Source of the DNA: Oscillospiraceae bacterium | Lineage (GTDB): Bacteria > Bacillota > Clostridia > Oscillospirales > Acutalibacteraceae | Assembly (NCBI GenBank): GCA_910574995.1 | Contig: CAJTCS010000004.1 | Location: 186,001-250,000, forward strand | Length of the DNA stretch: 64,000 nt | Reading direction: 5' to 3' | Part shown: one piece after another, positions 13,913 to 60,587 of the stretch | Layout of the letters: the number at the start of each line of letters is the position of its first letter | Numbering within the stretch: the stretch's first letter is position 1 | Translations under genes and position numbers: made by a program | The notes under the pieces: model-generated | Database searches by the model: none | What the model was told of the DNA's origin: nothing | The model's input: only the letters and a program-made list of their open reading frames with translations

Positions 13913-13966
13913 TCTATAATGGGAAAAGGCGGCGGGCCTTTGCCCGCCGCCTTTTCCCATTATAGA
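13913..13966. terminator. Perfect 25-bp bidirectional terminator
   Basis: Arms 13913-13937 and 13942-13966 are perfect complements with a CTTT loop. The GC-rich core (GGCGGCGGGC) is flanked by an A-run on one side and a T-run on the other. It sits 2 bp after the MATE gene stop and ends that minus-strand transcript; its outer halves are unusually long for a terminator. Confidence 0.9.
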
Positions 13967-15542: not shown

Positions 15543-16391
15543 ATGGAACAAAAACTTTATCCCACGCCCGGCCAGTTTTTAGCGGACAACCAGGCCTTCC
15601 TGCTGGAGAATGAAGCCCTGGTACAGCTGAACTTCGGCAACGCCAGCGCCCACCAGGCGGAAACCTGCCACCCCGGCATGCTTTTCGGCCGGTATCAGGA
15701 GGCAGGGGAGATGGCCCTGCTCTTCGGCAACACGCTGCCCTGGAATATCTGCCTGAACGCCCCGCGGGAGGATGCCCGTTCCATGCGGGCCGCGGCAGAA
15801 CTGGCCCGGTATCTCCGGGAATCCAACACAGAGATAAAAGGCGTCACCGCCCGGGGGGATTTGTCCCAGGCCTTCCGGGAAGCCTACGGCGGTACGTTCC
15901 GCACGCGTACTGCCATGGACATTATGGTCCTGCGGCAGTTGCAAAGCCCCCCCGCCGTGCCCGGCCGGGTACGCAAAGCGGGAATGGCCGACCTGCCCTT
16001 GGTGCTGGATTGGCTGTGCGCGTTCTCCTGGGAGGTGCTTCACGAGGAAACCACGCTGGAAAAGCAGCGGGAAGTTTTTGGGCCCCGGGTTGAGAGCGGG
16101 AAAACATACCTTTTTGAAACGCCGGAGGGGGCGGTGGTTTCCATGGCGACGGTCTGCCGCGACCTGCCCCATGGGGCGTGCATCAACGCGGTGTACACCC
16201 CGCCCCAGCATCGGGGCAGGGGATATTGCCAGAACACGGTGGCGGCGGCCTGCCGGGAAAAACTGGCCCAGGGGAAGCAGTATTGCACCCTGTTTGTGGA
16301 CAAAAAGAACCCCATATCCAACCGGGTGTACGAAAAGCTGGGCTTCCGGGTGGAAGAGGACTGCCTGGATTGCTTGCTGGCGGAGGAATGA
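15543..16391 (+). CDS. GNAT-family N-acetyltransferase
   Basis: The 282-residue protein has a degenerate N-terminal half and a C-terminal GNAT fold (about 150-280). The acetyl-CoA loop reads RGRGYCQNTVAAACREKL near 220-237. The late strand and helix are TLFVDKKNPISNRVYEKLGF, the usual end of the fold. The acceptor substrate is unknown. The ATG at 15543 has AAAGGAGG upstream; longer frames to 15477 overlap the promoter. It is followed 25 bp later by the uracil-DNA glycosylase gene and is probably co-transcribed with it. Confidence 0.88.
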   Translation: MEQKLYPTPGQFLADNQAFLLENEALVQLNFGNASAHQAETCHPGMLFGRYQEAGEMALLFGNTLPWNICLNAPREDARSMRAAAELARYLRESNTEIKGVTARGDLSQAFREAYGGTFRTRTAMDIMVLRQLQSPPAVPGRVRKAGMADLPLVLDWLCAFSWEVLHEETTLEKQREVFGPRVESGKTYLFETPEGAVVSMATVCRDLPHGACINAVYTPPQHRGRGYCQNTVAAACREKLAQGKQYCTLFVDKKNPISNRVYEKLGFRVEEDCLDCLLAEE

Positions 16392-16416
16392 CCCGGGGAA
16401 AGGAGGGAACGCCTAT

Positions 16417-16992
16417 ATGATTGGTAATTGGGAAAGGCTGCAGGCAGACTGCATGGGCTGCCAAAACTGCGGCCTGTGCCAAACCCGCCGCCATGTGGTG
16501 TTTGGGGTGGGGAACCCTGCCGCCCAGGTGATGCTGGTGGGGGAAGGCCCCGGCGAGCATGAGGACGAGCAGGGCGAGCCCTTTGTGGGCCGGGGCGGGC
16601 TGCTGCTGGACAAATATCTGGCAGCGGTGGACCTGGACCGGCGGACAAACGTATACATCACCAACATCGTCAAATGCCGTCCGCCCAAAAACCGGGACCC
16701 CTTGCCAGAAGAACAGGAAGCCTGCATCGGCTGGCTGCGGAACCAGTTCGCTATCATCCGGCCCAAGATCCTTTTGTGTTTGGGCCGTGTGGCAGCCATG
16801 AAGCTGATGAAGCCGGACATCCGCATCACCAAAGAGCACGGGCAATTCCTGGAAAAGAACGGCGTGCTGATGATGGCCACCCTGCACCCCGCCGCCCTGC
16901 TGCGCAACCCCAGCCAAAAGCCCGCCGCTTTTGAAGACTTCCTAAAGCTGCGGGAGAAGATTGACCAGCTGGGCTGCGACATTGCCCAATGA
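16417..16992 (+). CDS. Family 4 uracil-DNA glycosylase (4Fe-4S)
   Basis: The 191-residue enzyme removes uracil from DNA. The N-terminal CMGCQNCGLC cluster and the later KCRPPKNRDP and EEQEAC cysteines supply iron-sulfur ligands of family 4 enzymes. Motif 1 is GEGPGEHEDEQGEPFVG near residues 44-60, and motif 2 is the late TLHPAALLRNP. The start ATG at 16417 follows AAGGAGGG. It lies downstream of the GNAT gene in one transcript that ends at the 17001-17032 terminator. Confidence 0.94.
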   Translation: MIGNWERLQADCMGCQNCGLCQTRRHVVFGVGNPAAQVMLVGEGPGEHEDEQGEPFVGRGGLLLDKYLAAVDLDRRTNVYITNIVKCRPPKNRDPLPEEQEACIGWLRNQFAIIRPKILLCLGRVAAMKLMKPDIRITKEHGQFLEKNGVLMMATLHPAALLRNPSQKPAAFEDFLKLREKIDQLGCDIAQ

Positions 16993-17166: not shown

Positions 17167-18435
17167 CTATTCCATCTCCCGGCGGCGCTTCCGGCGCTTA
17201 TAGAGGATAATGGCCACGTATACCCCCAGAAACCCCAGGATGATGGCCACCAGCACCGCCGATTCCCCCGGCCCCCCCATCTTCACTTCCGCCCACAGCC
17301 TGTCCACCAGGTCGCTTGTTTCTTGGGGCAAGTTCACAAAAATCTGCGTTTTGTCCAGCACCTCTTGGGCGGGGTAGAAGATGGGGCTTTCGGCCACCTG
17401 GGGGCTAAGGTACTCCCGGGCCGCCATTTCCGGGGTAGAGTAGCCTACATAGTCCATATTGGCCCCGGCTATCTCTGGGTCGCACAGGAAATTGATGTAG
17501 GCCTCCGCCTCCGCCTTGTGCCGGGAGGTGGCGGGCACGCACATGGCATCCACAAAAAAGTTGGTCCCCTCTTCCGGCACCACAAAGCCGATATCCTCGT
17601 TGTTGTCCACCAAAATGGCCGCGTCGCCGGCATAATAGGGGGCCAGCCAGGCTTCGCCGTTTTCCATCTTGTCAAATATCTGGTCCATCACATAGGCCTG
17701 CACCAGGGGCTTTTGCTGCTTAAGCAATTCCGCCGCCGCCTGCCAATCTTTTTCGTCCGTGGTATTCACGTCCTGCCCCAGGCGGAACTGGGCGATGGCG
17801 AAGGAATCCCGGGGGTTGTCGAACATAAGGATCTTCCCGGCATATCCGTCGTCCCACAGGGCTTCCCAACTGGCGGGGGCTTCTACAAACTGTTTGTTGT
17901 AAAACATGCCCACCACGCCCCAAGTATAGGGCACCGAGTACAGGTTCTCCGGGTCATAGCTGGGGTTTTGGAACTGCCGGTCGATATAGGCATAGTTGGG
18001 GATGTTCCCAAAATCCAGGGGGGCCAGGCGGCCCTCGTTTATCAGCCTGGACACCATATAGTCCGAGGGGATGATGACGTCATAATCCGCACCGCCGCCC
18101 GCCAGCTTGGAGTAGAGGGATTCGTTGCTGTCAAACGTGGTGTAGTTCACCTGTATGCCTGTACGCCGGGTAAACTCCGCGTTTACGTCCAGGCTGCCGT
18201 CGGTGCCATTGGCGATATACTCCCCCCAGTTATACACGTTCAGGGTAACGCCCTCCTGGGCGGAAGCGGCGGGAGAAAGGACTAGCAGGATCCACAACGC
18301 TACCAGCCACGCCGCTGCCAGCCTGCCGCCGTGGCTGGCCGTTTTTCCAAAACGGCCACGCCGCTTACGCGGCGCGGCCGCCCCAAAGGGGCGGCCGGCT
18401 ACGGCGGCAGGCCAGGATCTCTGAGGCTGTCTCAT
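17167..18435 (-). CDS. potD: Spermidine/putrescine-binding protein PotD, with C-terminal membrane anchor
   Basis: The 422-residue solute-binding protein has the PotD/PotF fold, beginning VTLNVYNWGEYIANG after a signal peptide whose hydrophobic core is LAAAWLVALWILLVL and whose cleavage site is ASA. Motifs include DVIIPSDYMVSRL and YSVPYTWGVVGMFYNK. Two oddities stand out. There is no lipobox; instead a transmembrane helix (VLVAIILGFLGVYVAIILY) and a basic tail end the protein, so it is probably tethered through its C-terminus. Also, the region before the signal core (about residues 9-38) is encoded by a cruciform element at 18321-18412, which lengthens the N-terminus in frame. It overlaps potC by 4 bp. 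Confidence 0.93.
   Translation of the reverse strand: MRQPQRSWPAAVAGRPFGAAAPRKRRGRFGKTASHGGRLAAAWLVALWILLVLSPAASAQEGVTLNVYNWGEYIANGTDGSLDVNAEFTRRTGIQVNYTTFDSNESLYSKLAGGGADYDVIIPSDYMVSRLINEGRLAPLDFGNIPNYAYIDRQFQNPSYDPENLYSVPYTWGVVGMFYNKQFVEAPASWEALWDDGYAGKILMFDNPRDSFAIAQFRLGQDVNTTDEKDWQAAAELLKQQKPLVQAYVMDQIFDKMENGEAWLAPYYAGDAAILVDNNEDIGFVVPEEGTNFFVDAMCVPATSRHKAEAEAYINFLCDPEIAGANMDYVGYSTPEMAAREYLSPQVAESPIFYPAQEVLDKTQIFVNLPQETSDLVDRLWAEVKMGGPGESAVLVAIILGFLGVYVAIILYKRRKRRREME
18321..18412. repeat. Four-helix cruciform element inside the 5' end of potD
   Basis: A 12-bp closing stem (18321-18332 with 18401-18412) encloses three hairpins. They are 18337-18357 (9-bp arms, TCC loop), 18359-18374 (6-bp arms) and 18375-18397 (10-bp arms, AAA loop), with almost no unpaired bases between them. 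The element keeps the potD frame open and encodes an Arg/Ala/Gly-rich stretch ahead of the signal peptide. It has the same plan as 48362-48448, with different sequence. No target-site duplication is obvious. Confidence 0.7.
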
Positions 18436-19241
18436 GCGTCCCCCTCCTTCCCGGCCTTCTGGGCCTTGGCCTGGCGGGTGTTCACCACGATGAGCAGCCC
18501 CATCACCACCACGAACAGCACGGTAGAAAGGGCGTTGATCTCCGGGCTTACCCGCTTGCGGGTCATAGAATAGATATAGATGGGCAGGGTCTGGGTGGTG
18601 CCGCTGGTGAAATAACTGATGACAAAGTCATCGATGGACAAGGTGAACGCCATAATCATCCCTGTCACCACCCCGGGCAGGATCTCTGGCAACACGACCT
18701 TGAAAAAAGCCTGTACCGGCGGGCAGCCCAGGTCTTGGGCCGCTTCGTATAGGTTCGGGTCCATCTGCCGCAGCTTGGGCAGCACGGACAGGATCACATA
18801 GGGCAGGCAGAAGGTAATGTGCGCCGCTATCAGCGAGCCCATGCCCAGGCTGCGCCCCCCAAACAGGTTTACCGCGAAAACAAACAACAGCATCAGGGAA
18901 ACGCCGGTGACGATTTCCGGGTTTACCATGGGGAAGTTGGTGATATTCATCATAATGCGCTTGGGCAGCCGCTTCATAGAATTGATCCCAATGGCCGCCA
19001 CCGTGCCCAGCGCCGTAGAGGCCAATGCCGCGACCGCCGCGATCAACAGGGTGTTGCGCAGGGCCTCTAAGATCAGCCGGTCTTCAAAAAGCTTTTCGTA
19101 CCACTTGAAAGAGAATCCGCTCCACACTGTGCGGCTGGCCGTCTCCGTATCATTGAAGGAAAACACGATGAGCACTAAAATCGGCGCGTACAGGAAGAGG
19201 AAAACCAGCGCGGTGTAGATGCGCGATATGGCCTTGCTCAC
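18432..19241 (-). CDS. potC: Spermidine/putrescine ABC transporter permease PotC
   Basis: This 269-residue permease has six transmembrane helices and the EAA loop LYEAAQDLGCPPVQAFFKVVLPEILPG, typical of the PotC branch. With PotB it forms the membrane channel of the polyamine importer energised by PotA. Its ATG at 19241 overlaps the potB stop by 4 bp, and its own stop overlaps the potD start by 4 bp, so translation of the three is probably coupled. Confidence 0.95.
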   Translation of the reverse strand: MSKAISRIYTALVFLFLYAPILVLIVFSFNDTETASRTVWSGFSFKWYEKLFEDRLILEALRNTLLIAAVAALASTALGTVAAIGINSMKRLPKRIMMNITNFPMVNPEIVTGVSLMLLFVFAVNLFGGRSLGMGSLIAAHITFCLPYVILSVLPKLRQMDPNLYEAAQDLGCPPVQAFFKVVLPEILPGVVTGMIMAFTLSIDDFVISYFTSGTTQTLPIYIYSMTRKRVSPEINALSTVLFVVVMGLLIVVNTRQAKAQKAGKEGDA

Positions 19242-28853: not shown

Positions 28854-29068
28854 ATTGCCATCGGGCCCCCGCAACTGACGGGCAAGACGCGTACGCCTTT
28901 GCTGGGTATAAGCGTCTGGTGGGAAAACCACCAGGGAACGGGGAACCGCCCATTTGCCGACCGTCTGGGCAGCGTCATTTCCGGCGCTGCCCTTTTCGTT
29001 ATCCCACGGGGGCGGGAAGGGCAGGCCGCAAACCCAAATAGACCACGACCTGGGAAAGGAGCCGATCT

Positions 29069-45137: not shown

Positions 45138-45187
45138 GGCCCCCGCGCGGCTAAGCGGTGCCATGCATCGCGCGCCGCGCGGGGGCC
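45138..45187. repeat. Long GC-rich hairpin between divergent genes
   Basis: GGCCCCCGCGCGGC (45138-45151) pairs perfectly with 45174-45187. Inside, a 7-bp hairpin with a CAT loop forms after a small internal loop. It lies just upstream of a promoter (45188-45216) and between divergent pdaA and the response-regulator gene, so it is not in a usual terminator position. Confidence 0.6.
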
Positions 45188-47786: not shown

Positions 47787-48353
47787 ATGAAAAAACCATA
47801 TCTGGTAGGCATTGCCGGAGGGACTGCCAGCGGGAAATCTACGCTGGCCCGTTGGCTGGAAGAGGAGCTTTCTGACAAGAAAGTAAAGGCTTGCCATATG
47901 GACAGCTATTTCAAGCCCGACGGCGTAAGGCCCCGGGCAAAGGCCCATGTTTCTGGGGTGGAATATTACGACGACAACTGCCCAGAGACTATCTACGCTG
48001 GCAAGCTGCGGGAAGACCTGGCCCAGGCCATGGCGGAGGATTGGGACCTGGTGCTGGTAGAAGGGCTTTTCGCCCTGTGGTATGACTGGCTGTATAGCCA
48101 GCTGGATTTGAAGCTGTTCATCGACTGCCAGGCGGACGAGCGCGTCGTGCGCCGCCTGCGCCGGAACATGGCGGAGCGGGGCCTTTCCTTCGATGAGATC
48201 GCCGGGGTGTACCTGGACATGGTGCGCTACCGCCACCAGCAATACATCGAGCCCACCAAGTGGCGGGCAGACTTCATCTTGAACGGCTCGTCCCCTTCCT
48301 CCCTGGCCAACGGCCTGCTGCTGGGCTACCTGCGGCGCATGGCACAGGCATAG
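47787..48353 (+). CDS. Uridine kinase family protein
   Basis: The 188-residue P-loop kinase has GGTASGKST at 11-19, the acceptor Asp in CHMDSYFKP, and LVEGLFALW, the lid-adjacent strand. Uridine/cytidine kinases of this family phosphorylate pyrimidine nucleosides, but some members act on other substrates. The ATG at 47787 follows AGGGAGG. It is followed by a cruciform element, then mscS on the same strand. Confidence 0.87.
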   Translation: MKKPYLVGIAGGTASGKSTLARWLEEELSDKKVKACHMDSYFKPDGVRPRAKAHVSGVEYYDDNCPETIYAGKLREDLAQAMAEDWDLVLVEGLFALWYDWLYSQLDLKLFIDCQADERVVRRLRRNMAERGLSFDEIAGVYLDMVRYRHQQYIEPTKWRADFILNGSSPSSLANGLLLGYLRRMAQA

Positions 48354-48361
48354 GACAGGGC

Positions 48362-48448
48362 CCCGCCCGCAAACCGCCGGAAGCCTTTTGCTTCCGGCGC
48401 GCCCCGCAAAGCGGGGCGGCCCGCCCCAGGCGGGCGTTTGCGGGCGGG
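48362..48448. repeat. Perfect four-helix cruciform element between udk-like gene and mscS
   Basis: A 13-bp closing stem (48362-48374 with 48436-48448) encloses three hairpins that abut without a spare base: 48375-48399 (10-bp arms), 48400-48418 (8-bp arms, AAA loop) and 48419-48435 (7-bp arms, CCA loop). All 60-plus paired positions are Watson-Crick. It shares its plan with 18321-18412, not its sequence. There is no T-run after it, so simple termination is not the obvious role. Confidence 0.75.
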
Positions 48449-48493: not shown

Positions 48494-49327
48494 ATGGGTG
48501 TACAATGGGCGCAGTTCTGGGACGCCTTGTGGGCATGGCTTGCCAGGTTTATAGGCAACCTGGCGCTGGCCGCGCTGATTGCCCTGTGCGGCTGGCAGCT
48601 GGCCCGGCTGGCTGGCCGGCTGACCAAAAAAGCCATGGCAAAAGGGCGTATGGACCCTTTGGTGGCCAGCTTCATCGGCTCTGTGGTGCGCACAGTGGTG
48701 GTGCTTATCACCGGCGTCAGCGCCGTCGCCCAACTACAGGTAAACATCACCTCTTTGGTGGCTGCCCTGGGGGCCGCTGGGCTGACCGCCAGCTTTGCCT
48801 TGCAAGGCAGCCTGTCCAACTTTGTCAGCGGCATGCAGATTATCTTCACCCACCCCTTCAAAATGGGGGATTATTTGGCTTTTGAGGGGTACGAGGGGAC
48901 GGTCAAACGCATCGAGATGCTGTACACCGTGCTGGCCACCTTCGACAACAAAGAGGTGCTGGTACCCAATTCCAAAATGACCGGCAGCGTGGTAGTGAAT
49001 TTCACCAGCAACGGCACCCGGCGGCTGGACCTGAGCTACGGGGTGTCTTACCAGGCAGACCTGGCCTTGGCCAAGTCCCTGCTGTCCGGCCTGGCCCAGG
49101 GGGACCCCCGGGTGCTGGCCGAACCCGCCCCTGTTGTTGCCGTGGGGGAATTAAAGGACAGCAGCGTTACCCTGGTAATGAAGCTGTGGTGCCGCCAGGA
49201 GGCATACTGGGACCTATATTACGCCATGCAGGAGGCCGTAAAAAACGCCTTTGACCAGGCCGGGGTTCAGATCCCGTACCCACAGGTAGACGTGCATTTG
49301 GACGCACCCCCTACCGCAGGGGCGTAA
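48494..49327 (+). CDS. mscS: Small-conductance mechanosensitive channel (MscS family)
   Basis: The 277-residue channel has the pore helix LVAALGAAGLTASFALQGSLSNFVSGM and the beta domain with GDYLAFEGYEGTVKRIEMLYT, then VPNSKMTGSVVVNFT. Three N-terminal helices and a C-terminal alpha/beta vestibule match MscS. It opens during hypo-osmotic shock together with MscL. The ATG at 48494 follows AAGGAGGG. Its 3' end overlaps the converging spoIID gene by 17 bp. Confidence 0.94.
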   Translation: MGVQWAQFWDALWAWLARFIGNLALAALIALCGWQLARLAGRLTKKAMAKGRMDPLVASFIGSVVRTVVVLITGVSAVAQLQVNITSLVAALGAAGLTASFALQGSLSNFVSGMQIIFTHPFKMGDYLAFEGYEGTVKRIEMLYTVLATFDNKEVLVPNSKMTGSVVVNFTSNGTRRLDLSYGVSYQADLALAKSLLSGLAQGDPRVLAEPAPVVAVGELKDSSVTLVMKLWCRQEAYWDLYYAMQEAVKNAFDQAGVQIPYPQVDVHLDAPPTAGA

Positions 49328-60171: not shown

Positions 60172-60587
60172 AGATAATCCCCTTTCAAAACTGTTAAAAG
60201 GTTGGAATCGAAAAAAGGGGCTATCATCGGACGGCTGTTAGCGGCAACCTCACGGGAGTTTCACCCCTCCGACGGTCTGCCGGAGCTGTACCCATTGCCT
60301 GCGACGCTTTCAACGCTCGGACTGTGGCTATACAGGAGTATCATTATGTATTCTGCGCGTCGTGGCCTACAAGCTGCTATGCCTGTTTTCCGGCGTCGGT
60401 GTTGGTCGCTCGGCTTTTTCCCATAGGGAAAAGCGTCATGGCGCACCCGCCGCGTGGCTCGGCGCAAAAGGAACGTATCCGATTTGCCCTATGCTGCGCC
60501 GCCGTTATCTTGCGCCGCTTTCTTTTTCAAGGTGCAGCAGCAAGGCCAGAGCTGGGAGCAGCGGAAAGGGGGACGCTGCTTTTCAAA
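60172..60587. other. Non-coding gap inside the element
   Basis: No supported gene in about 415 bp. I see one clear palindrome (TTTTCCC-AT-GGGAAAA, near 60416-60432) and several GC-rich short repeats. The stretch is conserved in position in related elements and probably carries the int-xis promoter. Confidence 0.45.

Follow-up and report, generated by a model that had tools for sequence, protein, structure and literature searches.

The window, by which we mean the whole 64,000-nucleotide stretch of DNA that was analysed, contains an 87-base cloverleaf between a gene of the uridine kinase/PRK family and a gene for an MscS-type mechanosensitive channel (Table 1). These assignments agree with the udk-like and mscS neighbours proposed in an earlier note, which was made from the bare sequence. 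The element begins 8 nucleotides after the stop codon of the kinase gene, and the channel gene begins 45 nucleotides past its right end. Both strands fold into a 13-bp closing stem with arms of 10, 8 and 7 bp and loops of 5, 3 and 3 nucleotides, and the junction has zero unpaired bases; the stem, the hairpins and the gapless four-way junction described in the note are exact by folding. All 38 pairs are Watson-Crick. On the + strand the fold reaches -78.5 kcal/mol (z -8.58), a value that none of 200 shuffles matched.

Table 1. Coordinates, within the window, of the two three-armed copies, the parts of the element under study and the flanking genes
Feature	Position	Strand	Basis
Three-armed element	48362..48448	.	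fold, descriptor scan
Closing stem of element	48362-48374 paired with 48436-48448		
Arm 1 of element	48375-48399		
Arm 2 of element	48400-48418		
Arm 3 of element	48419-48435		
Uridine kinase/PRK family gene, upstream	47787..48353	+	PF00485, 72.1 bits
MscS-type mechanosensitive channel gene, downstream	48494..49327	+	PF00924, 69.5 bits
Second three-armed copy, different closing stem	18321..18412	.	fold, descriptor scan
ABC transporter permease, upstream in gene sense of second copy	18432..19241	-	PF00528, 70.2 bits
Solute-binding protein gene, downstream in gene sense of second copy	17167..18297	-	PF13416, 118.9 bits

The second three-armed copy in the window lies 19 nucleotides past the stop of the permease gene and has, on the + strand, a closing stem of 15 bp and arms of 10, 6 and 10 bp. 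Folding gives it the same plan as the element at 48362-48448, as had been claimed. The accompanying claim that shape is shared without sequence is true of these two copies and fails for the family at large, whose sub-families share closing stems. When scanned with a descriptor that allows only perfect stems, the window yielded these two three-armed folds and no others (scores 41 for 18321-18412 and 38 for 48362-48448), and first-order Markov shuffling of the window, done ten times, left 5 matches altogether, the top score being 28. Two long hairpins, at 13913-13966 (25 bp, zero unpaired stem bases) and 45138-45187 (21 bp, 5 unpaired), are together with the two cloverleafs the most stable structures per base in the fold list of the window. 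The window also contains a ZMP/ZTP riboswitch at 28861-28977 (+) and a pemK RNA at 60250-60347 (-), both of which reach the Rfam gathering score.

Membership of a known Rfam family was rejected, since no family reached its gathering score on the copies searched, 48362-48448 included. The best score below threshold on this element was 20 bits for anti-hemB (cut-off 49.5, E 0.017). Judged by eye, no T run follows position 48448, and the longest T run close behind any of the other 20 copies from G000 (the genome of the window), G011 and G021 is TTTT (at N112), also by eye. The hairpin followed by a T run that marks an intrinsic terminator was not found here.

Our genus sample consisted of 2.52 Mb from 22 genomes of the Neglectibacter group, which are gut bacteria: 864 kb of the 3.45 Mb of G000 (25%), 400 kb of G011, 200 kb of G004, and between 17 and 160 kb of each of the remaining 19. 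The descriptor search proposed in the earlier note, run on these sampled genomes with strict thresholds, returned 38 three-armed folds, one of them discounted. They were distributed as 23 in G004, 8 in G000, 3 in G011, and 1 each in G002, G017, G021 and G026. Shuffled sequence at the same thresholds gave no three-armed fold in 2.33 Mb (1.66 Mb from a single shuffle of the first part of the sample, and 0.66 Mb from three rounds on the G004 and G026 stretches). The discounted fold is the G002 match (L211, at a contig start), which lies within a G-rich run and is not counted as a member; the G017 match (L209) and the G021 match are imperfect folds. The strict thresholds overlook some known copies (L088, L095 and two in L213). 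The first 1.66 Mb contained 14 branched folds at or below -0.70 kcal/nt, and 13 of them were exactly three-armed, nine in G000 and four in G011. On the shuffles of the element, of the window and of the sampled genomes, a chance origin of the fold was rejected.

Copies across the family are about 80-111 bp long, and the closing stems of the 21 copies from G000, G011 and G021 measure 9-16 bp. A model, R1, which scores the element at 69.1 bits and had this copy in its training set, matched only in G000 when it was run with stricter filters on 150 genomes of the family; its genus run recovered 5 places in G000, against 10 copies known there. Because the run was strict and R1 misses known G000 copies, absence elsewhere is weak evidence. 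No second G000 copy similar to 48362-48448 was found at E 0.001, so G000 gives no sign of recent transposition.

Part of the family is connected by sequence through the closing stem. The stem CCCGCAAAC/GTTTGCGGG is common to ten copies in two species, the element at 48362-48448 among them. Of the 29 genus genomes searched with the corresponding pattern, only G000 (3 places) and G011 (7 places) contain it and the other 27 lack it; the reversed-pattern control gave 0. All ten copies are cloverleafs, with differing arms. A 10-bp version of the pattern was found at 29 loci in the GTDB collection, in which 84,980 species are represented by one genome each. Six of these loci are in Neglectibacter sp. 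X58 (G011, judging by an identical element), all cloverleaf; the 23 GTDB loci outside the genus and 4 viral loci included no cloverleaf (0/27). The second large sub-family, with the closing stem CCGTCTCGC...GCGAGACGG, has 39 places in G004 and none in the other 28 genomes (reversed control, 0 in G004 and one in G011). Every one of the 39 is three-armed; the stricter criterion applied to outside loci retains 38. None of 21 viral loci with this pattern is three-armed. Taken together, 0 of 48 non-genus or viral loci with matching closing inverted repeats fold into three arms, from which it follows that the inverted repeat is not enough by itself to give the arms. At the junction side the closing stems of the two largest sub-families end in GCAAAC/GTTTGC or CTCGC/GCGAG.

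Carriage by viruses was rejected as an explanation, as the 4 and 21 viral loci with the two closing-stem patterns include none that is three-armed. One G011 cloverleaf (L096, 3206-3287) lies inside prophage-like DNA, flanked on one side by a phage portal gene (phrog_30703) and on the other by a phage gene without assigned function (phrog_16951); a protein search from this copy found no relative.

The many G004 copies allowed pairing to be scored without folding. After three of the 39 copies with a variant arm 2 were removed, 951 of 977 stem positions in the remaining 36 rows were Watson-Crick, 14 were G-T, 6 A-C and 6 other. As scored, these rows contain 24 arm-1 stems and 17 arm-3 sequences, which occur together in 33 combinations, where the counts of arm types include a reversed row and stems of unequal scored length, the true numbers being slightly lower. 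Covariation was measured on 29 rows, from which 6 duplicates and the reversed-orientation row (L228) had been taken out. Both sides of a pair had changed in 45 cells, against 16.7 +/- 2.9 after shuffling, and the covariation score was 0.149 against 0.077, neither value being reached in 500 shuffles. With the partners slid by one to three columns, the same rows gave 3-23 both-side cells and scores of 0.028-0.067. Two of the five covariation measures were unexceptional, namely the number of pairs with a both-side change (8 vs 6.7, reached by 120 of 500 shuffles) and the number of further pair types (18 vs 16.5, reached by 122 of 500). Because the rows are related to one another, the shuffle counts cannot be read as probabilities. 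The closing stem is invariant in this alignment by construction, having served as the search pattern. Both-side change is concentrated in arm 1, where it affects 7 of 9 pairs. Another set of 18 rows, picked mainly for a fixed arm-1 register and omitting 8 offset rows, the irregular L244 and two fitting rows, gave 37 cells against 11.7 shuffled; our claim rests on the 29 rows.

The stems thus scored remain paired while the arm sequences turn over. The proposal that the family is defined by structure is borne out by many paired matches, by their absence from shuffled sequence and by compensatory change among the sequence-linked copies: this is a structure-defined, multi-locus family of the genus, and shape unites it more than sequence does.

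The surroundings of the G004 copies have features of their own. Long extragenic mosaics (L222, L226, L231 and others) consist of cloverleafs alternating with other modules. Small hairpins to the left of the cloverleafs comprise 9 stem types in 17 occurrences, with 82 of 85 positions paired. The cloverleafs often come in same-orientation pairs about 0.5-1 kb apart (C1, C2, C3, C12, C23, C33 and C38), and in the three intervals read, the paired cloverleafs have shared non-coding sequence between them.

Comparison of gene order revealed sites without the element. The genes that flank the window element adjoin without it in G006, G001 and G011. G011 also lacks the element at two further sites that are occupied in G000, and G021 lacks it at one site occupied in G011; all these comparisons resolve genes rather than single bases. 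No target-site duplication was seen by eye around the 21 GC-rich copies. Fifteen of these start 1-22 nucleotides past a stop codon (the stop at E37 by eye), and N65b and N120 overlap called reading frames. For G000, where the placement test covers 8 copies in called gaps, 7 lie 7-22 nucleotides past a stop codon, against 12.6% of 110,115 intergenic insertion points at 25 nucleotides or less past a stop (binomial estimate ~4e-6). The G000 and G011 copies are mostly between co-directional genes, whereas 23 G004 copies divide into 15 between convergent, 4 between co-directional and 2 between divergent genes, with 2 inside called genes. What we describe is a dispersed, non-coding, mostly extragenic palindromic repeat, in which an outer inverted repeat closes three abutting hairpins. 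Among the options listed in the earlier note, a mobile palindromic repeat fits best with the empty orthologous sites, the many unrelated loci and the mostly extragenic placement.

The genus carries a second repeat of this shape, which is AT-rich and has terminal inverted repeats. We noticed it at L187 1830-1945 (G010), L097 14356-14462 (G011) and L059 ~16371-16468 (G021). A search of the 29 genus genomes for its ends, TAGTTAACGCA...TGCGTTTACTA, gave 44 places spread over seven genomes (control 0), with 21 in G021, 10 in G011, 7 in G000, 3 in G010 and 1 each in G005, G023 and G015, and all four loci that were folded are three-armed. A related AT-rich copy occupies two places in one stretch of G021; five other genomes have this stretch but not the copy, and TA stands at the insertion point in all five of these natural empty sites. 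The genus therefore has at least one three-armed repeat that inserts at TA, and by analogy a mobile reading of the GC-rich family becomes more likely. The TA insertion is not proof that the two families share descent. The AT-rich repeat looks like a MITE with TA target duplication; MITEs of this kind are of the IS630/Tc1 type.

The structure could be maintained in DNA or in RNA, and base pairing in the two strands bears on the choice. The 21 copies from G000, G011 and G021 have 808 Watson-Crick and 11 G-U pairs among 819 pairs, with 8 single mismatches besides. The G-U pairs number 11 in gene sense and 10 in antisense, and the more stable strand is sense in 10 copies and antisense in 10, with one tie. 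If selection acted on the structure of the RNA, one strand should be favoured; the rarity of G-U and its lack of sense bias in these genomes point to DNA, and with moderate confidence we favour a DNA-level element. It is rather improbable, in our judgement, that the copies are RNA elements, that is, intercistronic mRNA structures past stop codons that would stabilise the upstream message, insulate translation or act as an RNase site, their pairing kept by selection on the transcript. Placement past stops, which in G000 and G011 falls mostly between co-directional genes, would suit such a role, as would the very stable fold of 48362-48448 and the compensatory change in the G004 copies. The G004 copies in arm-1-first orientation also have 25 G-U pairs on one strand and 12 on the other, a difference that would fit RNA-level tolerance; several of these pairs look like inherited variants. 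Against an RNA role stand the few and unbiased G-U pairs (11/819) of the other three genomes, the lack of the element in several orthologous operons, the convergent setting of 15 of the 23 G004 copies and the lack of an Rfam match at gathering score. The structured RNA that the earlier note listed as an option loses ground on the missing sense bias in G000, G011 and G021 and the missing Rfam family, although the G004 asymmetry speaks for it.

Three further explanations seem to us less probable again. Template switching can make and maintain stems, as is described for RNA hairpins (PMC8794818), and mending of arm mismatches during replication (quasipalindrome correction) could let perfect stems persist and drift once palindromes exist, without any function. 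Such mutational upkeep, which we regard as unlikely, would account for near-perfect stems with unrelated arm sequences and for the second class of variable-stem hairpins beside the G004 copies (82/85 paired). It leaves the dispersal, the constant three-arm plan and the shared closing stems unexplained, and the loops of arms 2 and 3 keep a single orientation across the G004 copies as oriented, so that frequent flipping of arms is itself unlikely. Retroposition, or copying through single-stranded DNA, that starts at the right end and leaves left-truncated copies is more doubtful still. Of 46 right-end matches in G004 one was set aside for 3 mismatches, and the other 45 comprise 38 whole copies and 7 cut from the left, which end at different points; compared by coordinates, all 41 arm-2/arm-3 sites have the right end, although the arm-2/arm-3 pattern is blind to copies cut from the right inside arm 3. 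Yet all seven truncated copies adjoin a full copy in the same orientation, which local duplication with deletion also explains, and the left-cut pattern may reflect either right-end copying or deletions in local duplications. Very unlikely, finally, is a REP/REPIN-type repeat mobilised by a RAYT (Y1 tyrosine transposase). REPINs resemble the family in that their outer inverted parts are conserved and their spacer is variable, with changes that compensate one another (PMC3116915), and Y1_Tnp (PF01797), the only transposase family tested, has a match in 9 of 29 genus genomes, G000 and G011 included. No candidate was found, however, in G004 (97% complete), the richest carrier, or in G026 (85%). 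The Y1 loci scanned (L151-L154, L255-L260) have no cloverleaf, and a common unpaired GTAG/CGTC tag was not seen by eye in the sets of 21 and 39 copies. Mobilisation by RAYT was rejected on the missing Y1_Tnp in G004 and G026 and the lack of cloverleafs at the Y1 loci.

We consider it probable that the family is a non-autonomous, extragenic, mobile palindromic repeat, similar to REPINs and MITEs but three-armed, which spreads as DNA. A trans-acting factor would recognise the folded shape, in a single strand or as a cruciform, together with a short closing-stem sequence, and the fold would be kept by selection at every round of copying. Arm sequences could then drift through compensatory change, and recombination between copies may reshuffle the arms. 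Copies would persist mainly in 3' regions, where promoters and ribosome-binding sites stay unharmed. Within operons a transcribed copy probably has the further, incidental effect of a stable hairpin block between cistrons. It is possible, though we hold this only tentatively, that the GC-rich and AT-rich families are branches of one class of mobile DNA that inherits a shape, a four-way junction with exactly three abutting arms, read by a putative enzyme that recognises the fold. Equally tentative is the corollary that arm sequences in such a class are almost free to change and that arms are swapped as modules between copies.

Families of this kind are overlooked by repeat searches based on sequence similarity, because the arms of different copies can be unrelated and it is the fold that links them. 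The 39 copies in one genome, with the variants in sister species, form a natural experiment in which pairing is kept as sequence changes, and which bears on whether selection, template switching or recognition by a transposase is the cause. If an enzyme reads the four-way junction, this would represent a novel form of DNA mobilisation guided by structure; if none does, the family offers a clean test of mutational palindrome upkeep.

Integron attC sites have ends of the form RYYYAAC...GTTRRRY, and such ends were not found by eye in the GC-rich copies. Like MITEs, the family is small and non-autonomous and has terminal inverted repeats, represented by the closing stems (9-16 bp in 21 copies). 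Unlike TA-type MITEs, it has no TA duplication visible by eye and no single fixed terminal sequence. REPINs, or REP doublets, are likewise extragenic, dispersed and non-coding, with conserved outer inverted parts, and their inner part, as in the GC-rich family, is kept by length and pairing ability and shows compensatory change; the REPIN paper (PMC3116915) names a "clover" configuration in the legend to a supplement. Our family differs from REPINs in that three separate hairpins and a closing stem form at once, in that arms 1 and 3 are not mutual inverted copies, and in that neither a GTAG tag nor, in the richest carrier, a Y1 candidate was seen.

REP families carry an unpaired GTAG or CGTC tag, and the CGTC class is said to have no dedicated transposase (PMC3733652). 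These REPs are, like the GC-rich family, short palindromic repeats outside genes, but they are 20-40 bp long with an unpaired tag, compared with 80-111 bp and three arms here (PMC3733652). CGTC is present in the G004 sub-family within the paired closing stem. The copies have the dispersed extragenic palindrome of REPs (few overlap called frames) and a compensating inner part; the unpaired tag was not seen by eye in 21 and 39 copies, and no RAYT candidate was found in G004 and G026. Since neither the unpaired tag nor, in the richest carrier, a Y1 transposase was detected, we have not filed the family as REP.

Among the matches listed, the open-access literature contained no three-armed interspersed bacterial repeat. 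Hairpin-forming repeats of sponge mitochondria (PMC2800124) are found in organelles, and the abstract of that paper does not mention a three-armed plan. A survey of structured RNAs in the human microbiome lists 250 palindromic candidates on both strands, 20 of which are not predicted terminators (PMC8040213). The four candidates illustrated there are mostly or wholly from Bacteroidetes, and some three-armed repeats may be included among the palindromic candidates of that survey (PMC8040213). The GC-rich family is best filed as a variant, not seen among the open-access papers listed, of the non-autonomous extragenic palindromic repeat.
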